From positions 62,001 through 126,000 of the forward strand of contig JASEFA010000007.1 in the NCBI GenBank assembly GCA_030019365.1: a stretch of DNA of 64,000 nt, written 5' to 3'. This document shows positions 44,498 to 59,337 of this stretch, in pieces. The notes under the pieces are model-generated. The model searched no databases and was not told where the DNA came from. It saw nothing but the letters and a program-made list of their open reading frames with translations. Position 1 is the stretch's first letter. Each line of letters opens with the position of its first letter. This DNA comes from Bacillota bacterium (lineage in GTDB: Bacteria; Bacillota; Sulfobacillia; JACIYH01). The translations under genes and the position numbers were made by a program.

Positions 44498-44758
44498 GTG
44501 CTGCATCCCGCTCCCGGCTCCGACCGGCCGGGAAGCGCCGCCCTGGCGGCCAGGGGGCCGGTGCGATTTCCCGCTCCCCGGCTGCGGGGAGAGCGGTGTG
44601 ACGGCTGTCTCCTGTGCTATTACTTCTGCCCTGACGGGGCCGTCGACCCGGGACCTCCGGTCCGGGTGGTGGCGGAATGGTGCAAGGGATGCGGCATCTG
44701 TGTGCGCGAGTGCCCTCGCCAGGCTCTGGAAGGGGGGGAGGGCTTCTGTTCGTGCTGA
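44498..44758 (+). CDS. 2-oxoacid:ferredoxin oxidoreductase delta subunit (2x[4Fe-4S])
   Basis: This 86-residue ferredoxin subunit has two [4Fe-4S] motifs: CDGCLLCYYFCP and CKGCGICVRECP. It resembles PorD/KorD, which passes electrons from the catalytic subunits to external ferredoxin. The GTG at 44498 lies downstream of the predicted transcription start and follows AGGAGGGGG by about 8 bases; an upstream GTG at 44450 would overlap the promoter and is rejected. The short Pro/Ala-rich lead before the clusters is usual. It overlaps the alpha-subunit start. Confidence 0.88.
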   Translation: MLHPAPGSDRPGSAALAARGPVRFPAPRLRGERCDGCLLCYYFCPDGAVDPGPPVRVVAEWCKGCGICVRECPRQALEGGEGFCSC

Positions 44759-45912
44759 TAGATGGAAACCGGGCCGCGGCCGAGGCGGCCTGCCTGTGCG
44801 GGGTCGAGGTGATCCCGGTCTACCCCATCACTCCCGCCTCTCCCGTCATGGAGCACCTGGCGGCCATGATCGACGGGGAGCGCCTGAAAGCGTGTCTCCT
44901 GGTGGTGGAGTCCGACCACAGCGCCCTGGCCGCTGCCGTGGGTGCCAGCCTGACGGGGGCGCGGGTGTTCACCGCCACCAACTCTCAGGGTCTGGCTTAC
45001 ATGAGCGAGTTGCTCTACCACGCCTCGGGCCTGCGCCTTCCCATCGTGATGGCGGTGGTCAACCGGGCCATGTCGGCACCCCATTCCCGGTTCGCGGACC
45101 AGGGAGACGCCCTGGGGCAGGAGGCGGCGGGATGGATCCAGTTCCACTGCGAGAGCGCCCAGGAGGTGCTGGATACCGTCATCCAGGCCTTCCGGGTCGC
45201 CGAGGATCCCCGCGTGCAGCTGCCGACCATGGTCAACTACGAGGCGTACGTGATCAGCCACACGGCGGAACCGGTGGGGGTACCGGAGCCCGCCGCCGTG
45301 CGCGATTTCCTGTGCCACCGTCCCCGCCAGGTCCTGGATCCCGGGCATCCCCGGGCGGTGAACACGGTGGCTTCCCACGCCTGGTACCAGCGCTTCCGGC
45401 AGGCCCAGCACGGCGCCATGGCGGGGGCGGAGGGCGTTATCACGCAGGTGGCGGCAGAGTTCGCCGAGGCTTTCGGGCGCACGTGGAACGGCCTGCTGGA
45501 GGAGTACCGTACCGACGATGCTTCCACCCTGCTGGTGGTGATTGGTGCCCCCGCCAGCACGGCCCGCATCGCGGTGGATTCCCTGCGAGAGAGCGGGCTG
45601 GCGGTGGGGATGATCAAGATCCGCTGCCCGGTACCCTTTCCCCGGGCGGCGTTCCGCCGGGCCGCGGCCACGGCACGGGAGCTGGTGGTCGTGGACCGCA
45701 ATCTCATCCCCGGCCAGGGGGGATTCCTGGCCCGCCAGGTGAGGGCGGCGGTGGCGGAGATGCCTTCCGCGGTCCAGCCGCGGGTGGTGGGGGTGGTGGC
45801 CGGGCTGGGAGGCGGCGACATCGAGGTGGAGGACCTGGTGCGCGTGACCGTGTCGGCGTCGGACCTGGCGGCGGATGCGGCGGGAGGGAACTGGTTTGTC
45901 GCGGCGGGCTGA
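44752..45912 (+). CDS. 2-oxoacid:ferredoxin oxidoreductase alpha subunit
   Basis: This 386-residue subunit of a pyruvate/2-ketoisovalerate-type ferredoxin oxidoreductase binds the pyrimidine side of thiamine diphosphate. It shows GNRAAAEAACLCGVEVIPVYPITPASPVMEHLA at the N-terminus, FTATNSQGLAYMSELLYHASGLRLPIVMAVVNRAMSAP, and a C-terminal transketolase-like domain (LVVVDRNLIPGQGGFLARQV). The domain order is that of PorA/VorB. GTG 44752 overlaps the delta stop codon. The four subunit genes run delta-alpha-beta-gamma. The substrate (pyruvate, branched 2-oxoacid or other) cannot be fixed by eye. Confidence 0.92.
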   Translation: MLIDGNRAAAEAACLCGVEVIPVYPITPASPVMEHLAAMIDGERLKACLLVVESDHSALAAAVGASLTGARVFTATNSQGLAYMSELLYHASGLRLPIVMAVVNRAMSAPHSRFADQGDALGQEAAGWIQFHCESAQEVLDTVIQAFRVAEDPRVQLPTMVNYEAYVISHTAEPVGVPEPAAVRDFLCHRPRQVLDPGHPRAVNTVASHAWYQRFRQAQHGAMAGAEGVITQVAAEFAEAFGRTWNGLLEEYRTDDASTLLVVIGAPASTARIAVDSLRESGLAVGMIKIRCPVPFPRAAFRRAAATARELVVVDRNLIPGQGGFLARQVRAAVAEMPSAVQPRVVGVVAGLGGGDIEVEDLVRVTVSASDLAADAAGGNWFVAAG

Positions 45913-45913
45913 C

Positions 45914-46798
45914 GTGGGGGTACGGCTGCGGGAGCTGATGCCTCCGGCGGCGGATGAGGGCTTTTCACCGGGCCACCGGGCCTGCCCGGGCTGCGGCGCC
46001 ACCATTGCCCTGCGCCAGGCGCTGCTGGCGCTGGGGCCGCGGGTGATCGTGGTGGTGCCCGCCTCGTGTGTGGCCAGCATCGGGGGCTGGGACGACGTCA
46101 CCGCCTGGCGGGTGCCCTTCTACCACACTCTGTTTCCCTGCGCGGCGGCGGCGGCGGCCGGGATTGCCGCTGGCCTGGCGGCCCGGGGAAGGCGCGGGGT
46201 GACCGTGGTCTCGTGGGCGGGGGATGCCGGTAGCGGTGACATCGGCCTGCAGGCCCTCTCGGGGGCGGCCGGACGTGGCGACGACGTGCTCCACGTGTGC
46301 TACGACAACGAGGCCTGCATGAACACGGGGGGCCAGGCCAGCGGCCTGACCCGACCGGGCGCGTCCACCAGCACCACCCCGGCCGGGAAGGCAACGGCCA
46401 AGAAGGATCTTCCCCGCATCATGCTGGCGCACGGGGTGCCGTACGTCGCCACCGCCAGCATCGCCTATCCCGACGACTTCGCCGGCAAGCTGCGCCGGGC
46501 GGCGTCCCGGAGCGGCTTCCGCTATGTGCAGGTGCTGGCGCCCTGCCCCCTGGGCTCGGGATACGAGCCGTACCGCACGGTGGAGATGGCGCGCCGGGCG
46601 GTGGAAGAGGGGGTCTGGCCCCTCTGGGAAGCCGAGGAGGGCCGGGTGCGGCCCACACGGCGCGGCCGGGCAACGCAGGGCAAACCGGCCGGGCGGCGCG
46701 GACCGCTGAGCGCGCCGGGCGGGGGGCGCGGGAGCGGAGTGGCCCGCGAGCAGGGGGTGCACCCTGGCGATGGGGGGCGTGATGGTGCCGGGACATGA
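45914..46798 (+). CDS. 2-oxoacid:ferredoxin oxidoreductase beta subunit
   Basis: This 294-residue catalytic subunit binds thiamine diphosphate diphosphate/Mg and a proximal [4Fe-4S] cluster. The cluster Cys pair RACPGCGATIALRQ is near residue 25, the ThDP motif WAGDAGSGDIG...DNEACMNTGGQ follows, and a late APCPLG Cys completes the set. The last 45 residues are a Gly/Arg-rich tail beyond the family's end, which overlaps the gamma gene by 29 bp. GTG 45914 directly follows the alpha stop; ATG 45938 with a weak GGAG is an alternative. Confidence 0.9.
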   Translation: MGVRLRELMPPAADEGFSPGHRACPGCGATIALRQALLALGPRVIVVVPASCVASIGGWDDVTAWRVPFYHTLFPCAAAAAAGIAAGLAARGRRGVTVVSWAGDAGSGDIGLQALSGAAGRGDDVLHVCYDNEACMNTGGQASGLTRPGASTSTTPAGKATAKKDLPRIMLAHGVPYVATASIAYPDDFAGKLRRAASRSGFRYVQVLAPCPLGSGYEPYRTVEMARRAVEEGVWPLWEAEEGRVRPTRRGRATQGKPAGRRGPLSAPGGGRGSGVAREQGVHPGDGGRDGAGT

Positions 46799-47276
46799 TC
46801 GCGGTGCCACCGAGATCCTGCTGTGCGGGTGGGGGGAGCAACCCCTGCTCCAGCTGGGGCTGGCCCTGGGGCGGACGTTCCTCGACCGGGGCATGATGGT
46901 GCAGGTGCAGCCCTCCTTCGGCAACGTGCGGCCGGGTGCACCCGGCTGGGTGGCGGTGCGTGTGGGGCGGTGCTATGTGCGGGAGCGGGGGCGGCAGCGT
47001 CCCCGGCCCCAGCGCGTTCTTTGCCTGGACCCTGCCCTGACGGGGTGGGCCTCCCGCCTGGCCAGGGGGGGTTCCGCCGACACGGCCCCCATCGGCATCG
47101 TCCCCATCGACGTGATCCCCACCGACGTCGCCCCCACAGGCGCCGTCCCTGGGGACGCTGCCCCCGCCGGCGTGGTCGGCGGCGGGGCGGCCGGGCCCGA
47201 TTGGCTCCAGCGGCTCATACCGGAGATGCTGAGCCTGGTGGAAGGGGGAGATAGCCGGGATGCTGGTGAGAGATGA
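46770..47276 (+). CDS. Divergent 2-oxoacid:ferredoxin oxidoreductase gamma subunit
   Basis: The 168-residue product occupies the gamma-subunit position. Its first 75 residues keep the gamma pattern in altered form: EILLCGWGEQPLLQLGLALGRTF in place of the usual GxGGQGV..AG segment, and VQPSFGNVRPGAPGWVAVRVG in place of PSYGPExRGG. The second half, normally the rest of the domain, is a low-complexity run of Pro-Ile/Thr/Ala-Asp/Gly units (about 47082-47180) and a short amphipathic end. It may be a degenerate or specialised gamma subunit. ATG 46782 is an alternative start. It overlaps both neighbours. Confidence 0.75.
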   Translation: MGGVMVPGHDRGATEILLCGWGEQPLLQLGLALGRTFLDRGMMVQVQPSFGNVRPGAPGWVAVRVGRCYVRERGRQRPRPQRVLCLDPALTGWASRLARGGSADTAPIGIVPIDVIPTDVAPTGAVPGDAAPAGVVGGGAAGPDWLQRLIPEMLSLVEGGDSRDAGER

Positions 47277-48030
47277 CCTCTGTACCGGTTGCGGGCTGTG
47301 CGAGCCTTACTGTCCGGTGGGTGCCATAGCCATCGAAGATGTGGCGGTGATCGATCAGGATCGCTGCGTCGAATGTGCTATCTGCTATCGCTCGGGGGTC
47401 TGCCCCCTGGATGCCCTGGAGTTGCCTGCGCTCACCTGGCCCCGGCTGGTGCGGGCCTTGTTTTCCGACCCGCTGCTGGCCCATCCCGGTACCGGAGTGC
47501 TGGGTCGCGGCACCGAAGAGATGAAGACCAACGACGTCACCGGTCGTTTTCAGCCCGGTCAGGTGGGGGTGGGGATCGAGCTGGGCCGCCCCGGGATGGG
47601 TACGTCTTTCCGGGACGTGGAGGTGATGGCCACCAGGCTGGCTGCCCTGGGCATCGGGTTTGAGCCCGAGAACCCGGTCACCCAGCTCATGGTGGACGGC
47701 ACGGGGCGCCTGCGCCCGGACGTGCTGGACGAGCGCGCCCTCTCCGCCATCATCGAGCTCACCATCCCCCAGGACCGGTTGCTACCGGTGCTGGCCGCGG
47801 TGCGGGAGGCGGGTGCGCTTATCGAGACCGTGTTCAGCCTGGACGTGATCGTGCCCGACCCTGGGCAGCGGGCGGAAGAGGTGGCCCGCCTCTGCCGGGA
47901 GGCCGGCTTCGCGACGCGGCCCAACGGCAAGACCAACGTGGGCCTCGGCCACGGCCGCGCTGGGCCGGCTGGGGGCGCAGGCGGAGGGGCGGCGGGATGC
48001 GCGGGCGCTGGGGAGGGGGTGCCGCGGTGA
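47260..48030 (+). CDS. Ferredoxin-fusion protein of unknown family (copy 1 of pair)
   Basis: This 256-residue protein has an N-terminal two-cluster ferredoxin domain. The first cluster is CTGCGLCEPYCP. The second, CVECAICYRSGVCP, has five residues before its last Cys instead of three. The remaining 190 residues are a domain I do not recognise, with the motif GRGTEEMKTNDVTGR near residue 90, VGIELGRPGMGTS, GIGFEPENPVTQLM and a late ETVFSLDV. A collinear paralogue is encoded at 53873-54628. ATG 47260 follows a GGGGGAG site. It overlaps the gamma gene and the next gene (GTGA), so it is translationally coupled to the oxidoreductase. Confidence 0.82.
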   Translation: MLVRDDLCTGCGLCEPYCPVGAIAIEDVAVIDQDRCVECAICYRSGVCPLDALELPALTWPRLVRALFSDPLLAHPGTGVLGRGTEEMKTNDVTGRFQPGQVGVGIELGRPGMGTSFRDVEVMATRLAALGIGFEPENPVTQLMVDGTGRLRPDVLDERALSAIIELTIPQDRLLPVLAAVREAGALIETVFSLDVIVPDPGQRAEEVARLCREAGFATRPNGKTNVGLGHGRAGPAGGAGGGAAGCAGAGEGVPR

Positions 48031-48686
48031 CGCACACGCTGCACAGGCAGGGGTCGGGTGACCTCGTCGGTGACTACGTGGTGCTGGTGATGGGCGCCAA
48101 AGGATTCACGCGGGAGGGGGCGGCACCCGCCCTGCGCCGCTGCCTGGAGGTGATCCTGCGGCACGATCCGGTGAACTGGGGCGACGGTCGCACGGGCAAC
48201 GCTTTCTCCCGCAGCCGGGAAGAGATCCTGGCCGGCATGGGCGACAACTCCGTCATCCACGGGGTGTTCACCGACCCGGAGACGGTGGCGCGGGTGCTGG
48301 ATGAACTCCGGGAGCTGGACACGGGCATGTCGGTGGTGGTTTCGGGTCTCTTCAACCGCGTGCACCCATGTGTGCGGGGGGCGGGGCTGGAACCGCACAC
48401 CATCGAGTTTTCCCTGGGCGTGCACGGACGGGTGGAGGGCCTGCCCTCCGACCGGCTGGTGATGGGCATCCAGACCATGTGCGGCCACGGCATGGTTTCC
48501 TACCACCTGATTTCCCACCTGGCCGGGGAAGTGGCGGCGGGACGCCTGGGCGCGGACCGGGCGGCGGCCACCATGGCCGCCAACTGCCACTGCGGCGTGT
48601 TCAATCCCCGCCGGGCGGCGCAGCTCATATCCGAACTGGCCCGCCGGGGCGCGGCGTCGTCGAGGGGGGTGGGAGCGTCGGGCTAG
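48027..48686 (+). CDS. Unknown Cys/His-motif protein (copy 1, partner of the ferredoxin-fusion protein)
   Basis: I do not recognise this 219-residue soluble protein. It starts VTHTLHRQGS and has DPVNWGDGRTGNAF near residue 50, EFSLGVHGR near 135, TMCGHGMVSYHL near 155 and NCHCGVFNPRRA near 190. The last two, a CGH and a CxCG, recur in its paralogue at 54625-55275 and could bind a metal or Fe-S cluster. GTG 48027 overlaps the stop of the ferredoxin-fusion gene and follows GGGAGGGGG by 8 bases. The fixed pairing of both paralogues suggests a heteromeric complex. Confidence 0.8.
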   Translation: MTHTLHRQGSGDLVGDYVVLVMGAKGFTREGAAPALRRCLEVILRHDPVNWGDGRTGNAFSRSREEILAGMGDNSVIHGVFTDPETVARVLDELRELDTGMSVVVSGLFNRVHPCVRGAGLEPHTIEFSLGVHGRVEGLPSDRLVMGIQTMCGHGMVSYHLISHLAGEVAAGRLGADRAAATMAANCHCGVFNPRRAAQLISELARRGAASSRGVGASG

Positions 48687-48759
48687 CGGGGAACTGACAC
48701 GATGGCGGCCGGTTACGGGAAGAGGAACCGTGCGAGGCAGAGAAAGGGGGAATCCGCAG

Positions 48760-49743
48760 GTGCAACGGTCAAAGGCCCTGGCTCTGGGCCTGGCGGTCCT
48801 GATGCTGCTGGCTGTGGCAGCAACGGGTTGTGCCGGCCAGAAGAAGGCCGCATACCCCGAGAAGCCCATCGAACTCGTGGTACCGTATGCGCCCGGCGGC
48901 GGCAGTGACGTGCTGGGCCGCCACATCGCTGACATCGTGCAGAAAGAGAAGATCCTGCCCCAGCCCTTCAACGTGGTGAACAAGCCGGGGGCTGGTGGCC
49001 AGGTGGGCATGAGCTACGTGAACACCAAGAAAGGTGATCCCTACGTCATACTCACGTTCATAACCGGGCAGGTTTCCGGCCCCAAGACGGTACCAGGAGC
49101 GGTGCCCGCGTCGGTGTTCACGCCCGTTGCCAGGCTGGCGCTGGACGAAGAGTGCATCGTGGTGAAGATCGACTCCAGGTACCAGACCATCGAGCAGCTG
49201 ATGGAGGCGGCCAAGCAGGGAGAGAAGGCAGTTTCTATGGGCGGTACGGCGGTGGGTCAGGAAGACCAGATGGTTACCGTGATGCTGGAGCAGGCTTCGG
49301 GCGTGAAGTTCAACTACATCCCCTTCGACTCCGGTGGAGAGGTCATGAAGGCCCTGCTGGGCGGGCACATAGATGCCGCCTGGGCCAACCCCAATGAGTG
49401 TGTCTCCCAGGTGGACGGCAGCCTGGCCAAGGTGATCGCGGTGGCCGCTCCGCAGCGCCTGAAGAAGTGGCCCGATGCGCCCACCCTGAAGGAGAAGGGG
49501 TACGACGTGGTGTTCGAGCAGTTCCGCGGCATCGTGGGCCCGCCCGAGATGCCCCAGGATGCGGTGAAGGTCCTGGCGGAGGCCTTCAAGAAGCTGTCGG
49601 AGTCGCAGGACTGGCAGAGCCGGTACATCGAAAGGAACGCCCTTACGTCCGCCTACCAGGGACCGGACGAATTCGCGGCCTACATGAAGGAAGTCGACCA
49701 GCTGACCACCGAGCTGCTCAAGGCCCTGGGACTCGTCAAGTGA
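48760..49743 (+). CDS. tctC: Tripartite tricarboxylate transporter substrate-binding protein
   Basis: This 327-residue lipoprotein has a signal with lipobox AATGC near residue 24 and a Bug/TctC fold: YPEKPIELVVPYAPGGGSDVLGRHIA, VVNKPGAGGQVGMSYV and FNYIPFDSGGEVMKALLGGHIDAAW. TctC-type receptors bind citrate, other carboxylates or aromatic acids. GTG 48760 follows AAAGGGGG by 9 bases; GTG 48730 would extend a polar lead before the signal. It heads a complete TctCBA set within the sigma-54 array, 73 bp after the unknown pair. Confidence 0.92.
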   Translation: MQRSKALALGLAVLMLLAVAATGCAGQKKAAYPEKPIELVVPYAPGGGSDVLGRHIADIVQKEKILPQPFNVVNKPGAGGQVGMSYVNTKKGDPYVILTFITGQVSGPKTVPGAVPASVFTPVARLALDEECIVVKIDSRYQTIEQLMEAAKQGEKAVSMGGTAVGQEDQMVTVMLEQASGVKFNYIPFDSGGEVMKALLGGHIDAAWANPNECVSQVDGSLAKVIAVAAPQRLKKWPDAPTLKEKGYDVVFEQFRGIVGPPEMPQDAVKVLAEAFKKLSESQDWQSRYIERNALTSAYQGPDEFAAYMKEVDQLTTELLKALGLVK

Positions 49744-49815
49744 GCGATGGCGCGCCCGGCGCGGGACGCACGGTCCTGCGCCGGGCCCTCCTCCCCCTTA
49801 TGGAGGCAGAATGCC

Positions 49816-50259
49816 ATGAGCGTTGATTCTGTGTTGGGTCTGGTGGCTTCGGTGGGAGGGTTGCTGCTCATCTGGCAGGGCTGGGTGCTGGGGTACTGGG
49901 TGCACCTGAGCGGTCCCGGTCCCGGGTTCTTCCCGGTGGTGCTGGGGTTGCTGCTGCAGCCGGTGGCCGCCCTGCTGGTGGTGGGGGGCAGGTCGGTCAA
50001 GGAGGGGTCTGAATGGGACCGGGGTCGCCTGGGGGCGATAGGGGCGGGGGCGCTGGCGTTCGCCGTCACCATCTGGCTGGTCAGCTGGCTGGGGATGCTC
50101 GTCGCCGTCGGCCTGTATACCCTGGGGTGGCTGCGGCTGGTGGGGAGGTACCCCTGGCCCCGGGTGGTGGCCATTGCGGCGGGCACCGTGGTGGCGGTGT
50201 ACCTGATCTTCGTGCTCTGGCTGAGGGTGCCGTTTCCCACCGGCATCCTGCCGCTCTGA
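49816..50259 (+). CDS. tctB: Tripartite tricarboxylate transporter small membrane subunit
   Basis: This 147-residue protein has four hydrophobic helices and the TctB pattern GPGPGFFPVVLGLLLQPVAALL after the first helix. TctB proteins are poorly conserved small subunits that work with TctA. ATG 49816 follows GGAGG by 9 bases, and the frame upstream to 49747 has no family sequence. It sits between tctC and tctA in the canonical order. Confidence 0.88.
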   Translation: MSVDSVLGLVASVGGLLLIWQGWVLGYWVHLSGPGPGFFPVVLGLLLQPVAALLVVGGRSVKEGSEWDRGRLGAIGAGALAFAVTIWLVSWLGMLVAVGLYTLGWLRLVGRYPWPRVVAIAAGTVVAVYLIFVLWLRVPFPTGILPL

Positions 50260-50271
50260 GGGGGCGAGCCC

Positions 50272-51795
50272 ATGGATATCTGGTCTTACCTGGGGCAGGG
50301 TTTCCTGTCCGTGTTTCAGCCCCAGCACCTCCTGTTCTGCATCATCGGCGTGGTGGCGGGGCAGGTGATCGGCGCCCTGCCCGGGATCGGTTCCGTGTCG
50401 GGGGTGGCGCTGCTCCTCCCCCTCACCTTCGGCATGGATCCCGAGTCGGCCATCATCATGCTCACCGGCATCTACTACGGCTGCATGTACGGCGGTACGG
50501 TGAGCGCCGTGCTCATCGACATCCCCGGAGACTCGGCGGCCATCATGACCGGGCTGGACGGATACCAGCTGGCCATGCGGGGGCGGGGCGGGCAGGCCCT
50601 GTTCATGGCGGCGGTCGGTTCCTTCATCGCCGGCACCTTCGGCATCCTGATGCTCACCCTCTTTGCCCCCCCGCTGGCCCGCTTCGGCCTGCGTTTCGGT
50701 CCCCCGGAGACGACTGCCCTCATGCTCCTGGCCCTCACCAGCCTGGGCTGGCTCACCGGTGAGTCCGCCGCCAAGGGGCTTCTCTCCGCCCTCCTGGGGT
50801 TGTTCCTGGCTGTGATCGGGGTGGACAGCGTCTCCGGGCGCCCCCGCTTCACCATGGGGGTCATCGACCTCATGGACGGGATTCCCTTTCTGCCCATCGT
50901 CATCGGGATATTCGGGATTACCCAGGTACTGCTCTGGCTGGAGAGCCGGGCGCACTGGAAGGTGATGAAGACCAACCTGGGGTTGCGCGCCATCCTGCCT
51001 TCCGTGCAGGAGTGGGCGGTATCGAAGTGGGCCATCGTGCGGGGAACCATCATCGGATTCTTCGTGGGGCTGATGCCGGGCGCGGGTGCCACCACCGCCT
51101 CCTTCCTGTCCTACACCATAGAGCGGCAGTCGTCCCGGCACCCCCACCTGTTCGGGAAGGGGGCCATCGAGGGCGTGGCTGCTCCCGAATCGGCCAACAA
51201 CGCCGCCGCCATCGCCGCCTACGTGCCCCTGCTATCCCTGGGCATCCCCGGCTCCGCCACCACGGCGGTGCTCATGGGCGGGCTCATGCTGTGGGGGTTG
51301 CGGCCGGGGCCCCTCCTGTTCCGGGACGCCCCCGAGTTCGTGTGGGGCCTCATCGCCAGCATGTACGTGGCCAACTTCCTGCTCCTGGCCGTGAACACCC
51401 TGGCCATCCCCCCCATGATCCGCATCCTGAGCATCCCGGCCCCGGTGCTGATGGCCATCGTGTCCGTGATCAGCATCGTGGGCGCCTACTGCGTGGACAA
51501 CAGCGTCTTCGACATCTGGCTGGCCCTGGGGGCGGGGGTACTGGGGTACTTCATGAACAAGCTGAAACTGCCCGTGCCCCCGGTGGTCCTGGGCCTGGTG
51601 CTGGGGCCGGACCTGGAGACGGCCATGAGGCAATCATTCATGCTTTCCAAAGGGTCGGTGGCCATTTTCTTCACCCGGCCCATTGCCCTGGGTCTGCTCA
51701 TCGCCACGGCGCTTTTCCTCAGCGCCCCGGCCATCGGTGGGCTGATCCGCAGGCGCCGGGCGGCGGTCCCCCGGGAGGTGCCCGCGAGCAGGTAG
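50272..51795 (+). CDS. tctA: Tripartite tricarboxylate transporter large membrane subunit
   Basis: This 507-residue protein has about twelve helices. Family motifs include GQVIGALPGIGSVSGVALLLPLTFGM near residue 25, YYGCMYGGTVSAVLIDIPGDSAA, FFVGLMPGAGATTASFLSY and GVAAPESANNAAAIAAYVPLLSLGIPGS. It is the cation-coupled transport unit of the TTT system. The ATG follows GAGGGGGCGAG and starts 12 bp after tctB. Together with a PrpR-type sensor this argues that the array is induced by, and imports, a carboxylate. Confidence 0.94.
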   Translation: MDIWSYLGQGFLSVFQPQHLLFCIIGVVAGQVIGALPGIGSVSGVALLLPLTFGMDPESAIIMLTGIYYGCMYGGTVSAVLIDIPGDSAAIMTGLDGYQLAMRGRGGQALFMAAVGSFIAGTFGILMLTLFAPPLARFGLRFGPPETTALMLLALTSLGWLTGESAAKGLLSALLGLFLAVIGVDSVSGRPRFTMGVIDLMDGIPFLPIVIGIFGITQVLLWLESRAHWKVMKTNLGLRAILPSVQEWAVSKWAIVRGTIIGFFVGLMPGAGATTASFLSYTIERQSSRHPHLFGKGAIEGVAAPESANNAAAIAAYVPLLSLGIPGSATTAVLMGGLMLWGLRPGPLLFRDAPEFVWGLIASMYVANFLLLAVNTLAIPPMIRILSIPAPVLMAIVSVISIVGAYCVDNSVFDIWLALGAGVLGYFMNKLKLPVPPVVLGLVLGPDLETAMRQSFMLSKGSVAIFFTRPIALGLLIATALFLSAPAIGGLIRRRRAAVPREVPASR

Positions 51796-51837: not shown

Positions 51838-52428
51838 TTGGAGATCGTGGTTGATCCGGGCCGCTGCATGGCCTGCCGTTCCTGTCAGGTGGCCTGTGCC
51901 CTGGCCCGCGATTCGGCCTCCCGCACCCTGGTAGGGGGGCTGGGGGAAGACCCTCAGCCCCTGCCCCGGGTGTCGGTGCGGGAGAGCCCGCTGCCGCTGG
52001 CGATCCCAGAGGCGCGGGGAGATAGCCCGGGCCAGCCGGCGGCGGCAGGTTTGCCCGTGCAGTGTCGCCACTGCCTGGATGCTCCCTGCCTGGACGCCTG
52101 CCCGACGGGAGCCATGCACAGGCCGGAGGCGGAAGGTGCGGTACTTTATGACGAGGCCAAATGCATGGGTTGCCTGATGTGCGTGGCCGTCTGCCCCTTC
52201 GGGGCGGTCAGGCCGGGGCACGGAGGCCGGGTGTCCAAGTGCGACCGCTGCACGCAAATGGAGTACCCCTTCTGCGTGGACGCCTGCCCCACCGGAGCTC
52301 TCCAGTACCGGGAGCGCGCGGCCTGGCAGGAAGTGGCGGCTACGCGGCAGGGAGCTCTCATGAAAGCGCTGGCCCTGGTATGGGAAGGAGGCACCGCAGG
52401 TGAGGACACTGCGCAAGAGAACGGCTGA
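51838..52428 (+). CDS. CooF-like polyferredoxin (four [4Fe-4S])
   Basis: This 196-residue electron-transfer protein has four Cys motifs: CMACRSCQVAC, CRHCLDAPCLDACP, CMGCLMCVAVCP and CDRCTQMEYPFCVDACP. This is the layout of CooF/DMSO-reductase-B type subunits. A Pro/Arg-rich insert of about 50 residues follows the first motif. It precedes and overlaps by 29 bp a CooS-like gene, as CooF does in CO dehydrogenase loci. The start is TTG 51838, 8 bases after AGGAGGTG; a 14-codon frame (51813-51854) overlaps this start. Confidence 0.9.
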   Translation: MEIVVDPGRCMACRSCQVACALARDSASRTLVGGLGEDPQPLPRVSVRESPLPLAIPEARGDSPGQPAAAGLPVQCRHCLDAPCLDACPTGAMHRPEAEGAVLYDEAKCMGCLMCVAVCPFGAVRPGHGGRVSKCDRCTQMEYPFCVDACPTGALQYRERAAWQEVAATRQGALMKALALVWEGGTAGEDTAQENG

Positions 52429-53869
52429 CCCTCTTACCGAGCAACTGATGGCTGATTCGAGGGGAGGATCGTGGCCATCGCTTTGGGACAGGTTTGAGAA
52501 GCAGGTGCCCAACTGCGCCTTCGGCCAGATGGGGCTGTGCTGCCAGGCGTGCAGCCAGGGGCCGTGCCGGGTAGATCCCTTCGGGCAGGTGGAGGCCACC
52601 AGCTGCGGGCGCACCCGGACGGGGCTGGTGGCCAGCGAGTTCTGCCGCCAGGTGGCCCAGGGGGCCGCCGCGCAGCTGACCCATGCCCTGCGGTCGGGCG
52701 GGGAGGGCGGCAGGGGGGATCCGGCCCCGGTCCTGGAGGCAATGGAAGTGGCACGCGAGGGGGACCGCTCCCCGGAAGATACCCTCATGGCGGCGGTACG
52801 GGCCGCCCTGGCGGGGACGTCCGCCCTCGCCATGGTGCCTGCGGATGGGGCCACCGCCCGGGGAAAGGCTGGCCTGGCCGCCCTGCGCCGGGACGAACCC
52901 AACGTACTTCTGGTGGGCCGGTTCAGTGCTGCCCCGGCGGCGCTCGCGGCTGGCCGCGACGCCGGGGTGAACGTAGGCGCAGCCTGCGGTGCCGAAGGTG
53001 AGGGGCGGTTCCGCGTGGCCGGGGATTACGGATCGCAGGAGGTGCTGGTGACCTCGGGAGTGGTCGATGCCGTGGTGGCGGGCGAAGCCTGCGTGGCCCC
53101 CGGCCTGGAGAAGGCAGCCCAGGCCGCGGGTGTTCCCTTCTTCCGTGGCGGCCCGGTGGACGTGGCCGGGGTGGTGCGCGCCGCAGAGGGGCACTTCCGG
53201 CGGGCGGCGGGGCGGTCGTCGCGACCCTGGCCCGACGGGCCCGAAGCAGTGGTAGGCCTGGGCAGGGTCGCCCGCGAGGTGCTGGCGGGAGCTGCGGCCG
53301 TATCCGGGCTGCGGGGCGTGGCCTGGCTGGGTGGTTGCAGCAACGCCAGGGTCACGCACCGGGGAGCCATCCTGGACCAGGCCCGCGCCCTGCTGTCTGC
53401 CGACGTGCTGGTGCTGGCTTCCGGCTGCGCGGGTGCGGCCCTGGCCGCGGCCGGCCTGCTCGATCCCGATCGCCGCGAGCACTCCGTGGGCCGGGGGCTG
53501 GCTGAGGTCCTGGGCCGCGCGCAGAAGGCTACCGGCCTGGGATTGCCGCCCGCATGGCACCTGGGTACCTGCTGGTCCGACGGCCACACGCTGACCCTGC
53601 TCGCCGACCTGATCCGGGCGGGTGTGCCGGTGCTGGCTTCCTTCCCGGAGGCATCGCGGCCGGCGGCCTGGGCCACGGCGGTGGCGGCGGCAGCACGGGG
53701 CATCCCCACTTATCTGGGTCCTGTGCTGCCCCTGGACGGCACCAGGGAAGCCCGCGACATGTTGGGGCGGGTGCTGCAGGAGATGGGCGGTAAGACCCTG
53801 GTGGGACCGGGACAGGTGCGCAAACCCGAGCAGGTGGCGGCGGTGCTGTGGGATGGGGAGGGGGCGTAG
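52400..53869 (+). CDS. Shortened CooS-like (Ni-Fe CO dehydrogenase family) protein
   Basis: This 489-residue protein belongs to the CooS/Hcp superfamily but is about 150 residues shorter than CooS. The D and B cluster cysteines sit at 39, 47, 48, 51, 56 and 69, almost the numbering of Carboxydothermus CODH-II (39, 47, 48, 51, 56, 70). Five C-cluster cysteines also appear conserved (196, 231, 313, 343, 391). The C-cluster His (His261 in CODH-II) falls on Arg174 (VGRFS), and the catalytic Lys563 region has no Lys. About 100 residues between B and C clusters and about 30 later ones are missing. GTG 52400 follows GGAAGGAGG. Function is unlikely to be ordinary CO oxidation. Confidence 0.85.
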   Translation: MRTLRKRTADPLTEQLMADSRGGSWPSLWDRFEKQVPNCAFGQMGLCCQACSQGPCRVDPFGQVEATSCGRTRTGLVASEFCRQVAQGAAAQLTHALRSGGEGGRGDPAPVLEAMEVAREGDRSPEDTLMAAVRAALAGTSALAMVPADGATARGKAGLAALRRDEPNVLLVGRFSAAPAALAAGRDAGVNVGAACGAEGEGRFRVAGDYGSQEVLVTSGVVDAVVAGEACVAPGLEKAAQAAGVPFFRGGPVDVAGVVRAAEGHFRRAAGRSSRPWPDGPEAVVGLGRVAREVLAGAAAVSGLRGVAWLGGCSNARVTHRGAILDQARALLSADVLVLASGCAGAALAAAGLLDPDRREHSVGRGLAEVLGRAQKATGLGLPPAWHLGTCWSDGHTLTLLADLIRAGVPVLASFPEASRPAAWATAVAAAARGIPTYLGPVLPLDGTREARDMLGRVLQEMGGKTLVGPGQVRKPEQVAAVLWDGEGA

Positions 53870-53872
53870 GCG

Positions 53873-54628
53873 GTGCAGGTTGATGCGGAGAAGTGCGTGG
53901 GCTGTGGCCAGTGCATCCCCTTCTGTCCGGTGGATGCCCGTAGCCTGGGCAGGTTACCCGGGCACGGCCGGGTGACCCTGATCATCGACTCCGACCGTTG
54001 CGCGGAGTGTGGCGTGTGCCTGCGCTCGGGCATCTGCCCCACCGACGCCATGTACCAGGAAGCCCTGGAGATGCCCCGTCTGATCCGGGCCATCCTGTCC
54101 GATCCCCTCATCGAGTTCAAGGCCACCGGAGTGCCGGGACGGGGTACCGAGGAGATCAAGACCAATGAGATCACGGGACGCATCCGGTTCGGTTACGCCG
54201 GTGTGGGTATCGAGATGGGCCGTCCCGGGGTGAGCACCTCCTGGGAGGACGTGCAAGAGGTGACACGGGCTATGGCCAAACTGGGGGTCGGCTTCTGCGA
54301 AGGCAACCCGGTTACCCATTTCATGGCGGACCGGAACACCGGGGATCTCGAGCCCGACGTGGTGAAGGAAAAGTCGCTTTCGGCCATCATTGAGTTCGAC
54401 GTGTCCCTGGAGAAGCTCCCCGAGGTGTTGCGGGTGTTGCAGGAGATCACCCCCCAGCTCGAAACCGTCTACACGCTGGAGGTCTCCTGCAAGGTGCATC
54501 CCGACGGCACCCTGCCCGTGCTGCCCATCATTGAGCAGGCGGGGTATACCGTGTTGCCCAACAGCAAGAACAACCTGGGGATGGGCCGGCCGCGGTTCCG
54601 CGAGCCGGGAGAGGAGGGTGTGGCATGA
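53873..54628 (+). CDS. Ferredoxin-fusion protein of unknown family (copy 2 of pair)
   Basis: This 251-residue protein is a collinear paralogue of the one at 47260. It has the same two-cluster ferredoxin domain (CVGCGQCIPFCP; CAECGVCLRSGICP with five residues before the last Cys), then GRGTEEIKTNEITGR, VGIEMGRPGVSTS, GVGFCEGNPVTHFM and ETVYTLEV. Unlike copy 1 it has no Gly/Ala tail. It starts 3 bp after the CooS-like gene and overlaps the next gene (ATGA). The unknown domain probably works with a ferredoxin-dependent enzyme in both contexts. Confidence 0.82.
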   Translation: MQVDAEKCVGCGQCIPFCPVDARSLGRLPGHGRVTLIIDSDRCAECGVCLRSGICPTDAMYQEALEMPRLIRAILSDPLIEFKATGVPGRGTEEIKTNEITGRIRFGYAGVGIEMGRPGVSTSWEDVQEVTRAMAKLGVGFCEGNPVTHFMADRNTGDLEPDVVKEKSLSAIIEFDVSLEKLPEVLRVLQEITPQLETVYTLEVSCKVHPDGTLPVLPIIEQAGYTVLPNSKNNLGMGRPRFREPGEEGVA

Positions 54629-55275
54629 CCCACAGCCTGCACCGCCGCGGTTCCCGGGAGAGCCTGGAGAAGGACTTCGTGGTGCTGTCGTGCTCGGCGA
54701 AGGGGTTCAACGACAACGTCTTCGGCCAAAAGGGCAAGGAGTTCCTGCGCATCTGCCTGCGCCATCATCCCGTGAACTTCGGCGACATGAAGACGGGGAA
54801 CTTCCTGAGCGTCGATCCGGAGGAGGTCATCGCCCGCGTCTCCAACACCACCATCCTGGAAGTCACGTACGACAGCAAGCAGGACGTGGTGGAGCTTATG
54901 CGCGACCTGAAGGAGGCGGACCTGGGAGTTTCGGTAATCATCTCCGGATTGCACGACGTGGTGGAGGACATCGTGCGCCAGGTGGGCCTGAAGCGCATCC
55001 ACACTCGGGAGTACTCTCTGGGCACCCATGGTCGGCTGGAACTATTGCCGGAGTACGAGGTCCTGGAGTTCACCACCATGTGCGGCCATGCCATGGTGGC
55101 GTCCGGACTGGTCAAGCACATGATCGCCCAGTGCAAGCTGGGACGCCGTTCCCTGCGCGATGCGGCGGTCACCATGGGGAAGTGCTGTTCCTGCGGCAAC
55201 TTCAACGTCAACCGCGCCCAGGACCTGCTGGCCCGCAACCTGGGGCTCTGGGTCGCCGACTGGCCAATCTACTGA
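54625..55275 (+). CDS. Unknown Cys/His-motif protein (copy 2 of partner)
   Basis: This 216-residue protein is the paralogue of 48027-48686. Shared elements are MTHSLHRRGS at the start, HHPVNFGDMKTGNFL near residue 50, YSLGTHGRLE, TMCGHAMVASGL and KCCSCGNFNVNRA near the end. The CGH and CxCG motifs are thus conserved between copies while surrounding residues differ, which supports functional Cys/His ligands. The start ATG overlaps the stop of the ferredoxin-fusion gene, as in the first pair. No known family comes to mind. Confidence 0.8.
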   Translation: MTHSLHRRGSRESLEKDFVVLSCSAKGFNDNVFGQKGKEFLRICLRHHPVNFGDMKTGNFLSVDPEEVIARVSNTTILEVTYDSKQDVVELMRDLKEADLGVSVIISGLHDVVEDIVRQVGLKRIHTREYSLGTHGRLELLPEYEVLEFTTMCGHAMVASGLVKHMIAQCKLGRRSLRDAAVTMGKCCSCGNFNVNRAQDLLARNLGLWVADWPIY

Positions 55276-55299: not shown

Positions 55300-56634
55300 A
55301 TGAAGCACGTTATCGTGGGCAACGGGCCGGCCGGGATGACGGCCGCCCTTACCATCCGCTCTGCCCGCCCTCGGGACGAGGTTACTGTGGTGACGGCCGA
55401 CGAGGGGGCGTACTACTCCAAGGTGAGGGAGCCGGACCTGCTGGCGGGGGAGGCGGAACCCGCGCTGCTCGAGCTCGCGGCGGAAAGCGCGATCCGGAGC
55501 GCCGGGATCGAGCTGGTGACGGGTATCGCCGTCCGCTCCCTCGACCGCGGGGCGCGACGGGTCTTCCTGGAAGATGGTCGGGAGCTGTCGTACGACTGCC
55601 TGCTGCTCTCCACCGGTGCCAGTCCCATTGTCCCCGCGGTCCCCGGCATGCACGCCGGCACCGACCCCGGCCGCCCTTTGCCGACGGGGGTGTTTGCCCT
55701 GCGCACCCTGCGGGATGCCCGCCGGCTGGCCGCAGCGGCGGGGAGGGCACGAAATGCGGTGGTGGTGGGGGGTGGATTCATTGGGGTCCACGTGGCCTGG
55801 GCGCTGGCCGCCCGCGGCCTGGACGTTACGCTGGTGGAAAAGATGCCCACCCTGCTGCCCGGGGGCTGCGACGACACGGCTTCGTCCCTGGTGGCCGCCC
55901 ACCTGGAGTCCCGGGGCGTGAGGGTCATGCTGGGTTGTGCCCTGGAGTCGGTCGCCTGCTCCGGTGGCGGGGAGGCCGGGCCGTGCTCCGGTGGCGGGGC
56001 GGGGGCCAGCCTCCAGGTGGAGGTGGGCGGTACCACCATCCCGTGCGACCTGGCGGTGCTGGCGGTGGGCGTCAGGCCCAACACGGCGTTGGCCCGCCAG
56101 GCCCGGGTCGAGGTGGCGGAGGGGGTGGTCACCGACGCCACCATGGCCACCACCGTATCGGGGGTCTGGGCGGCCGGAGACGTGGCCCAGACGCTCGACC
56201 TGGCCACGGGAAGACAGGGGATGCTTCCCCTCTGGCCCCTGGCGGTAGCCCAGGGCCGCATCGCCGGGCGCAACATGGCCGGCCTGCGCGCCTCCTACCG
56301 GGGAGGCCTCCGCATCAACCCCGTGCACCTGGGGCCGCTGCAGGTGGTCTCCCTGGGAGAGATCTTTCCGGCCGGCCCCTGGGCCCGGGTGCTCACCGGC
56401 CCGGCCCCGGGGCGCGCACCATTCCACGGGGGGGACCATGGGCGCGGCCTGCCGGCCTACTTCCGGATCGCCTTCCAGGATGATCGCCTGGTGGGGGTGC
56501 TCCTGGTGGGCGCGGTGGAGGCCGCCGGTATCCTCGGTTCTCTGATTGCGCGCGCCATCCGCCTCCGCGCGCAGGACGAAGCCTTGCGTCTGGTGGGTGC
56601 AGCGCTGCGGACCGCCCTTCCCGCCCGCCTCTGA
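55300..56634 (+). CDS. FAD/NAD(P)-dependent oxidoreductase of the CooS-CooF type cluster
   Basis: This 444-residue pyridine-nucleotide disulfide-type oxidoreductase has the N-terminal FAD motif VGNGPAGMTAA, LLLSTGASP, a second nucleotide fold VVVGGGFIGVHVAW near residue 155, and VWAAGDVAQ near residue 290. There is no CxxxxC redox disulfide. CooS, CooF and such a flavoprotein are known as a CO-linked NAD(P)H-forming set in acetogens, so it probably links ferredoxin to NAD(P). ATG 55300 follows AGGGAGG. A 27-bp in-frame duplication (55957 and 55984) lies in a surface loop. It is the last gene of the sigma-54 array. Confidence 0.9.
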   Translation: MKHVIVGNGPAGMTAALTIRSARPRDEVTVVTADEGAYYSKVREPDLLAGEAEPALLELAAESAIRSAGIELVTGIAVRSLDRGARRVFLEDGRELSYDCLLLSTGASPIVPAVPGMHAGTDPGRPLPTGVFALRTLRDARRLAAAAGRARNAVVVGGGFIGVHVAWALAARGLDVTLVEKMPTLLPGGCDDTASSLVAAHLESRGVRVMLGCALESVACSGGGEAGPCSGGGAGASLQVEVGGTTIPCDLAVLAVGVRPNTALARQARVEVAEGVVTDATMATTVSGVWAAGDVAQTLDLATGRQGMLPLWPLAVAQGRIAGRNMAGLRASYRGGLRINPVHLGPLQVVSLGEIFPAGPWARVLTGPAPGRAPFHGGDHGRGLPAYFRIAFQDDRLVGVLLVGAVEAAGILGSLIARAIRLRAQDEALRLVGAALRTALPARL

Positions 56635-56885: not shown

Positions 56886-57377
56886 GTGCAACATCCTTGT
56901 GAGGAGGGATCAGCCCTGCCTCTGCACGGACCGGATGAACCGGTATACACGATCAGCGTGGCTGCCCGCCTCCTGGGGGTTAACCCGCAAACCCTGCGGG
57001 TGCTCGAGCGGTACGGGTTGGTGTGCCCCTCCCGTACCGAGAACAACATCCGCCTGTACTCGGAGAACGATCTGGTCCTCCTGCAGCGGATATGCCACCT
57101 GATCCGGGTCGAACGCATAAACATGGCCGGGGTCAGGGTCATCCTGCGCATGGAAGGCCGGCTGTCCGGCCCGGACCTGCCGGGCGACGAGGCGGCCGAG
57201 GACGATGCTGGCGAGCACGGGCGGACGGGGAGACCGGGGCGGCCGGGTTTCCGGCGCATCCCGGTTGAGGTGCCCGAGGAAGGGGACGCCCGAGAGGACG
57301 GGCGGGGAGCAGCGAGTGGGGACAAGGAGGTGCGCGTGTATGGCGAAGGTCGTGGGCATCGATCTGGGGACCACTAA
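56886..57377 (+). CDS. hspR: HspR-type MerR-family heat-shock repressor
   Basis: This encodes up to 163 residues with a MerR HTH ([49 protein letters not shown], about residues 21-70), as in HspR of Streptomyces, and a hydrophilic Gly/Asp-rich tail. HspR represses dnaK operons with DnaK as co-repressor. Start choice is open. GTG 56886 coincides with the predicted transcription start, so it would be leaderless. CTG 56916 follows AGGAGGG by 7 bases. The 3' end overlaps dnaK by 38 bp. In actinobacteria hspR is normally last in the operon; here it is first. Confidence 0.85.
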
Positions 57378-59337
57378 CTCAGTGATCGCGGTAATGGAGG
57401 CAGGCAAACCGCAGGTGATCATCAATGCGGAGGGAAGCCGCCTGACCCCTTCCGTGGTGGGCTTCACCAAGGCGGGAGAGCGCCTGGTGGGGCAGCTGGC
57501 ACGCCGGCAGGCGGTGCTGAACCCGGAGAACACGGTGTTTTCTATCAAGCGGTTCATGGGGCGGCGCTACGATGAAGTTTCCCTGGAGCGGGAACGGGTT
57601 CCCTATCAGGTGAAGCGGGGAGCCAGCGATACGGTGCGCATCAACATGCCCGCGGCGGGGAAGGAGTTCTCTCCGGAAGAAATCTCGGCCATGATCCTGC
57701 AGAAGCTGAAGATGGACGCCGAGAAGTACCTGGGCGAGCCCGTGACCAAGGCCGTCATCACGGTACCGGCATACTTCAACGACGCCCAGCGCACCGCCAC
57801 CCGTGATGCCGGGCGCATCGCCGGGCTGGAGGTGCTGCGCATCATCAACGAGCCCACGGCCGCCTCCCTGGCCTATGGCGTGGACAAGAAGACCAACGAG
57901 ACCATCCTGGTGTGGGACCTGGGCGGCGGCACCTTCGATGTCTCCATCCTCGAAGTGGGGGACGGCGTCTTCGAGGTGAAGGCCACCTCCGGGGACACCC
58001 ACCTGGGCGGCGACGACTACGACATGCGCCTGGTGAACTGCGTGGCCGACCGCTTCCAGCGGGACACGGGCATCGATCTCCGCAAGGACCGGCAGGCTCT
58101 GCAGCGCCTGCTGGAGGCGTGCGAGAAGGCCAAGTGCGAGCTTTCCTCCGTGCCGGAGACGACCATCTCCCTGCCCTTTATCACCGCCGATGCTTCGGGC
58201 CCCAAGCACCTGGAAGAGCGCATCAGCCGGGCGAAGTTCGAGGAGATTACCCGCGACCTCACCGAGCGGTGCATCGGACCCTTCCGCCAGGCGCTTTCTG
58301 ACGCCAGGCTGACGGAGCGGGACATCGCCGAGGTCATCCTGGTGGGGGGCGCCACCCGCATGCCCGCCATTCAGGAGCTGGTGCGCAAGCTCACCGGCAA
58401 GGAGCCCAACCGGGGAGTGAACCCGGACGAGGTGGTGGCGGTGGGGGCGGCCATCCAGGCCGGAGTGCTGGCCGGTGAGGTGAAGGACATCGTCCTGCTG
58501 GACGTCACCCCGCTCTCCCTGGGCATCGAGACCCTGGGCGGCGTCATGACCAGGCTTATCGAGCGTAACACCACCATCCCCACCCGCAAGAGCGAGGTGT
58601 TCACCACCGCCGCCGACGGGCAGACCACGGTGGAGGTCCACGTGCTGCAGGGCGAGCGGGAGTTCGCCCGCGACAACCGCACCCTGGGCCGCTTCCTGCT
58701 GGACGGCATCCCGCCGGCGCCTCGCGGCATCCCGCAGATCGAGGTCACCTTCGACATCGACGCCAACGGCATCCTGAACGTAACGGCGAAAGACCGCGCC
58801 ACCGGCCGCGAGCAGCACATCACCATCACCGGCTCGACCCAGCTCTCCAGGGGCGACATCGACCGCATGGTGAAGGAAGCCGAGAGTTACGGCCAGGAAG
58901 ACAAGAAGCGGCGCGAGCTGGTGGACGCCCGCAACCAGGCCGACTCCCTCATCTACCAGGTCGAGAAGACCATGAAGGACACGGGGGCCCGGCTCTCCGG
59001 GGACGAGAGGTCCCGCATCGAGCGGGCCATCTCGTCGCTGCGGGAGGCCGCCAAGGGCGAGGACGTATCCCGCATCCGTTCCGCCATGGAGGAACTGCAG
59101 CAGGCGTCGTACAAGATGGCAGAGCAGCTCTACCGCCAGGCGGCCGGTGCCGGCGCGTCAGCAGGTCCGGGCGACGCCTCTGGCGGGCCGGCAGGTCCGG
59201 GGGGTGGTGGGCCGGGTGGCCCTGGCGGCACCTCCGGCGGGCCGGGCGGCACGGCCGACGGTACCGGCGAATCCTCGCGCCGGGGCGGAGACGACGTCAT
59301 CGATGCCGAGTACCGTCCCAGCGACGGAGACCGGTAG
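57340..59337 (+). CDS. dnaK: Chaperone protein DnaK (Hsp70)
   Basis: This 665-residue Hsp70 has the ATPase start [18 protein letters not shown], the phosphate loop [34 protein letters not shown] and the substrate domain with [16 protein letters not shown]. The C-terminal tail of about 60 residues is rich in Gly/Pro/Ser and ends in [12 protein letters not shown], close to the usual D/E-rich end. ATG 57340 follows ACAAGGAGGTG, a strong site that overrides the 38-bp overlap with hspR. It folds proteins with GrpE and DnaJ encoded next. Confidence 0.97.

Follow-up and report, generated by a model that had tools for sequence, protein, structure and literature searches.

The mini-CooS operon and its neighbours

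The window, by which we mean the whole 64,000-nucleotide stretch of DNA analysed here, carries on its forward strand an operon of five genes that includes a CooS (Ni-CODH) homologue of the mini-CooS group. The mini-CooS reading frame (52400..53869) has a GTG start and codes for a protein of 489 residues with a CO dehydrogenase (CODH) fold. It is preceded by the gene for a CooF-like ferredoxin (51838..52428; 196 residues with four 4Fe-4S motifs), which overlaps the mini-CooS start by 29 bases, and it is followed by two genes that we refer to as FeSC and Comp. FeSC (53873..54628) has two N-terminal [4Fe-4S] ferredoxin motifs and a domain of about 170 residues without a known family, and Comp (54625..55275) is 216 residues long. 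The fifth gene (55300..56634) encodes a 444-residue FAD/NAD(P) pyridine nucleotide-disulphide oxidoreductase (FNOR). Directly 3' of the operon is a gene for a MerR-type regulator (56886-57377), which overlaps the start of a long open reading frame for a DnaK-like protein (57205-59337).

Upstream, also on the forward strand, are the TctC, TctB and TctA genes of a tripartite tricarboxylate transporter (48730..51795), a recurrent neighbour of mini-CooS operons, and the genes for 2-oxoacid:ferredoxin oxidoreductase subunits (44677..47276), of which alpha and beta are clear and the gamma-like reading frame is weak. Beside both lies a second FeSC-Comp pair (47260-48686) without a mini-CooS, its FeSC (47260..48030, forward strand) being 46% identical to the first and its Comp (47997..48686, forward strand) 39-40% identical. 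A third pair, again without a mini-CooS, is found elsewhere in the same genome (pairs of this kind are represented by loci L239 and L240), and there are many such pairs in Dehalococcoidia, Bathyarchaeota, Sulfolobales and Hungatella. The genome also has a canonical CooS adjoining acetyl-CoA synthase (L001, 1471-3429 and 3446-4866), and Wood-Ljungdahl chemistry is therefore served by another gene.

The mini-CooS reading frame matches TIGR01702 (E=1e-47, 162.7 bits), the Prismane family PF03063 (E=1.6e-30) and CODH sequences in the PDB (down to 1.5e-39), and these matches, together with the fold described below, confirm the CooS-like assignment made by eye in an earlier note on this DNA. The TIGR01702 score is nevertheless far under the equivalog cut-off of 478 bits, and the protein is not placed among the Ni-CODHs by this model. 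Comparison with a congener gives a dN/dS of 0.21, indicative of purifying selection, and a chance reading frame or a pseudogene is ruled out by this ratio, by the E-values and by the intact orthologue in the congener. In length the protein falls 147 residues short of the CODH-II-type reference, close to the 150 or so that the earlier note took to be missing.

Metal-site residues and predicted fold

Residues are numbered here by the CODH-II orthologue L010, on an alignment with canonical CooS in which the canonical rows, including L001 of the same genome, contain all of the cluster ligands as well as His93, His96 and Lys563. In CODH structures, Cys526 binds Ni and Cys333, Cys446 and Cys476 bind the other Fe, and His261 is, beside Cys295, the other protein ligand of Fe1. 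Cys295 is a ligand of the exo Fe1 in CODH-II, and its C295A/E variants are Ni-deficient and without CO oxidation (PMC9311411).

The alignment agrees closely with the earlier reading by eye. The six cysteines of the D- and B-clusters (Cys39, 47, 48, 51, 56 and 70) are all present in the window mini-CooS, as C39, C47, C48, C51, C56 and C69, and Cys333, Cys446, Cys476 and Cys526 correspond to C231, C313, C343 and C391, with a 446-476-526 spacing of 30/50 compared to 30/48 in CODH-II. The span from residue 70 to 294 is 127 in the window protein versus 224 in CODH-II, and the deletion of about 100 residues proposed to lie between the B- and C-clusters is thus one of 97. His261 falls exactly on Arg174, as had been noted, and the position of Lys563, at which no lysine had been found, is occupied by Ala. 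The proton-channel histidines were described as mostly gone, and His93 is indeed Gln and His99 is Arg, with His96 retained as H95. The remaining claim, that Cys295 is kept, is ambiguous: there is one cysteine in the region (Cys196) where CODH has the pair Cys294-Cys295, but it aligns with Cys294 and faces a gap at 295. Of the C-cluster ligands, Cys333, 446, 476 and 526 are thus present but His261 is replaced and Cys295 has no aligned counterpart, and both acid-base residues, His93 and Lys563, have been substituted.

His261, Lys563 and His93 are absent from the window protein and from that of its congener alike. Across the six members of the window's subgroup the four cubane cysteines are invariant, whereas Cys294, His261 and Lys563 are not. 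The earlier note allowed that a His and a Lys from elsewhere in the chain might occupy the site, and we looked for such substitutes by conservation across these six members rather than by distance. The one lysine conserved in the subgroup is K6 near the N-terminus, a position that can also be Arg; the one conserved new His is H265, which is present in five of the six and is Thr in CODH-II.

An AlphaFold2 model of the window mini-CooS, built from a 24-sequence alignment, has a pLDDT of 85 and a pTM of 0.91. Superposition on CODH-II, which the earlier note had proposed together with a comparison to the hybrid-cluster protein (HCP), covers 482 of the 489 residues at 2.2 A (Z 36.9), and the corresponding Z scores are 33 for CooS-V and 25 for class III HCP. 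As modelled, the protein has the complete CODH fold, with some segments trimmed, and is nearer to CODH than to HCP.

These observations bear directly on whether the protein is still a CO dehydrogenase, albeit with an unusual active site, which we regard as very improbable. The fold, the six D/B cysteines and the retention of four or five C-site cysteines are as expected for such an enzyme, and the sister Sporomusaceae proteins have the whole C-cluster motif, but His261, Lys563 and His93 have all gone from the window protein and its congener, the TIGR01702 match of 162.7 bits falls well short of the required 478, and a canonical CooS is encoded separately in the genome, beside acetyl-CoA synthase. 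The view of the earlier note that the protein is not a CO oxidiser is, at the level of sequence, well supported by the loss of the outer-Fe His ligand and of the acid-base residues. Its suggestion of a different cluster composition is plausible for the window protein because exactly the four cubane-vertex cysteines are left.

Site decay and operon conservation across the family

A phylogeny, also proposed in the earlier note, was built without the ligand columns from 66 rows (50 mini-CooS and 16 canonical CooS). The 50 mini-CooS proteins, that of the window among them, form a single clade (support 100/100) separate from the 16 canonical proteins, and the window's subgroup is sister to the Sporomusaceae mini-CooS (99/82). 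The main groups are unchanged in an earlier tree that included the ligand columns and had fewer rows.

The four B-cluster cysteines are intact in all 66 rows, all 50 mini-CooS included, but the C-site is in very different states. Only 18 of the 50 mini-CooS retain the four cubane cysteines, and ten of these also have both His261 and Lys563 (seven Sporomusaceae proteins, L045 and two relatives); the other eight, among them the window protein, have the four cysteines but lack His261, Lys563 or both. The complete metal-cluster motif, which is found in the Thermosinus carboxydivorans member but does not define the group, is accordingly absent from the window protein. In the remaining 32 of 50 the four cysteines are not retained, while their B-cluster cysteines and operon partners are conserved; the Desulfosporosinus form is one that has the B-cluster only. 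Mini-CooS without the C-site can still be recognised clearly as CODH relatives by sequence, L061 for example matching CODH-II with E=1.4e-32. Parsimony requires two changes for the cysteine set, and five for His261 and six for Lys563, the latter two counts including chance matches in diverged rows; the cubane cysteine set has been lost at least twice among the mini-CooS. In L232, L233 and L234, which are closely related to L045 with its complete motif, Cys39, the B-cluster and the cysteine at 294 remain. Cys333, 446, 476 and 526 are gone from all three, which is an independent loss of the site. We also note a Halanaerobium mini-CooS on a very long branch (L237, 7244-8515) in which the cubane cysteines, all four, and Lys563 are retained and His261 is replaced by Lys.

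The operon is much more stable than the site. Most of our combined set of loci was found through Comp, which as a query against 84,980 species genomes gave 79 loci, and 39 loci of the set carry a mini-CooS, with a CooF-like ferredoxin and an FNOR beside nearly all of them. Because of this dependence on Comp a second sample was searched with the mini-CooS profile alone, and the 17 further mini-CooS so obtained have an adjacent CooF in 17, FNOR in 16 and Comp in 15 cases, the two loci without Comp both being at contig ends. The module recurs in L006, L009 and seven Sporomusaceae loci, and its content of CooF-like ferredoxin, mini-CooS, FAD/NAD oxidoreductase and FeSC-Comp pair persists through all stages of decay. 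The order CooF-CooS-FNOR is also seen in seven of 12 canonical CooS loci (CooF-linked or other Bacillota, in other genomes), without FeSC-Comp. Neighbours across the mini-CooS loci include TctCBA, DctM, lactate racemase, FAD-linked oxidase and PdxA, as well as aldehyde ferredoxin oxidoreductase and 2-oxoacid oxidoreductase, which suggests a link to small-carboxylate metabolism.

Since the operon persists in every stage of decay, its common function should not need the C-site. This is a difficulty for a model in which the pocket cysteines 231, 313, 343 and 391, with Cys196, ligate a modified cluster that, as in CooS-V, would turn over a different substrate; the four are not kept in 32 of the 50 members, which have the same kind of operon. 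The window protein also lacks the C-cluster or hybrid-cluster His, has no Glu in place of Cys295, and its subgroup offers no conserved new Lys and just one candidate His (H265). That the four cysteines are invariant in the window's subgroup, on long branches, could nonetheless reflect a working altered site rather than ongoing decay, and a CODH scaffold can bear a different cluster, as shown by the Fe/S/O hybrid cluster with slow hydroxylamine turnover of CooS-V from Carboxydothermus hydrogenoformans (PMC9311411). We consider this model unlikely, and a non-CO substrate at the old site, which the earlier note had raised as one of two likely options, is not the best reading. Loss of the four cysteines in 32 of 50 with conservation of the B-cluster and partners points instead to a protein that transfers electrons or has a structural function, and FeSC-Comp is the more likely place for catalysis. 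The seven Sporomusaceae and three L045-type proteins keep His261, Lys563 and the cysteines within the same operon, and some members may therefore still be catalytic at the C-site.

The operon context also bears on a regulatory role, in which mini-CooS would be a redox or gas sensor or a regulatory subunit whose clusters gate FNOR or FeSC-Comp without passing electrons. Sensor functions are possible for Fe-S proteins that lack catalytic residues, and a MerR-type gene is situated just downstream (56886-57377), although it was not found as a recurrent neighbour in the other loci compared, and mini-CooS sits among electron carriers in a gene order typical of electron-transfer operons. We think such a role improbable.

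Proposed role and relation to known systems

The reading that we prefer, with a probability of roughly 0.6, is that mini-CooS descends from a CO-oxidising CODH and has become a subunit that links NAD(P)H to FeSC-Comp as an Fe-S relay or scaffold. The ancestor would have been a CODH in a CooF-CooS-FNOR operon that passed electrons from CO to NAD(P)+. The outer Fe and Ni chemistry would have been lost from the window protein with His261, the Cys294-Cys295 pair, Lys563 and His93, and mini-CooS would no longer oxidise CO. Cys231, 313, 343 and 391, the four cubane-vertex ligands, may still bind a cubane of the ordinary [4Fe-4S] or Ni-free kind, which would be an additional relay; in other lineages this cubane would be lost too, leaving the B-cluster as the part that all members need. 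Gene order leads us to infer a complex of mini-CooS with FeSC-Comp, and electrons would move, in either direction, along the series NAD(P)H, FNOR (FAD), CooF (four [4Fe-4S]), mini-CooS dimer, FeSC (two [4Fe-4S]) and Comp. A relay or scaffold between FNOR/CooF and FeSC-Comp would be the simplest explanation for the conserved module.

In this scheme the chemistry would take place at Comp, with a small carboxylate brought in by TctCBA as the substrate. Of the five genes, FeSC and Comp evolve under the strongest constraint, with dN/dS values of 0.08 and 0.09 compared with 0.21 for mini-CooS. FeSC has eight invariant ferredoxin cysteines and a conserved GRGTEExKTN motif in its second domain, and the invariant residues of Comp are H6, R7, D17, T151-M-C-G-H155, C188 and C190. 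No Pfam or NCBIfam family matches Comp above cut-off, and there is no match to it among annotated plasmids. Its model has a pLDDT of 92, and comparison with solved structures gave a best Z of 5.0, to PII-like proteins, within a range of common arrangements; we assign no fold, and the missing structural match does not show that the fold is new. A relationship of Comp to proline racemases, with which it has the MCGH string in common, finds no sequence or fold support, and homology of the FeSC C-terminal domain to Comp was likewise rejected (hhalign probability 5%).

A broader proposal, which we put forward tentatively and consider somewhat less probable than its alternatives taken together, is that FeSC-Comp represents a novel type of Fe-S enzyme with small carboxylates as its substrates, for which a site-decayed CODH has been re-used as an electron conduit to NAD(P)H, with several steps of that decay surviving in extant lineages. 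If so, a metalloenzyme has been turned into a wire. CO dehydrogenase is counted among the most ancient enzymes, and the mini-CooS family offers a stepwise loss of its active site while the fold, B-cluster and operon stay, which opens to direct test the question of what part of a CODH is enough when only electrons have to be transferred. The FeSC-Comp pair, as yet uncharacterised, is widespread in both bacteria and archaea, and the mini-CooS family is a caution that annotation as CO dehydrogenase need not mean CO oxidation.

The mini-CooS group is already named, though little described. The accessible part of one survey (PMC8776680, citing Techtmann 2012) describes the mini-CooS of T. carboxydivorans (published sequence WP_007288589.1) as a protein of small size in which the motif is complete, places mini-CooS in Ni-CODH clade G and excludes sequences with mutated or deleted site residues; that part contains no mention of the FeSC-Comp operon. 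The Sporomusaceae proteins analysed here (470-505 residues, complete metal motif) conform to this partial description, whereas the window protein differs from it in lacking His261 and Lys563. Our literature search found no account of decayed mini-CooS or of the operon, although most subscription papers were outside its reach and absence is not proven.

CooS-V, for which no CO activity is reported (PMC9311411), resembles the window protein as a CODH scaffold with an altered C-site. It alters just one of the six C-cluster residues, Cys295 to Glu, and keeps His261, whereas the window protein has lost His261 and has no Glu at 295. HCP and the window protein belong to one superfamily (Pfam Prismane), but the window protein has the CODH-type N-terminal B/D cysteine motif and its similarity to HCP is less than that to CODH. 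The hybrid-cluster His of HCP, which we take to be the equivalent of CODH His261, is represented by Arg174, as judged from a sequence alignment of CODH-type rows without HCP. The closest parallel is with canonical CooS in CooF-CooS-FNOR operons, with which the window mini-CooS shares its fold, its B- and D-cluster cysteines and the order of CooF and FNOR. It departs from them in the absence of the C-cluster His, the acid-base His and Lys and the Cys294-Cys295 pair, in being 147 residues shorter, and in the addition of FeSC-Comp to the operon.
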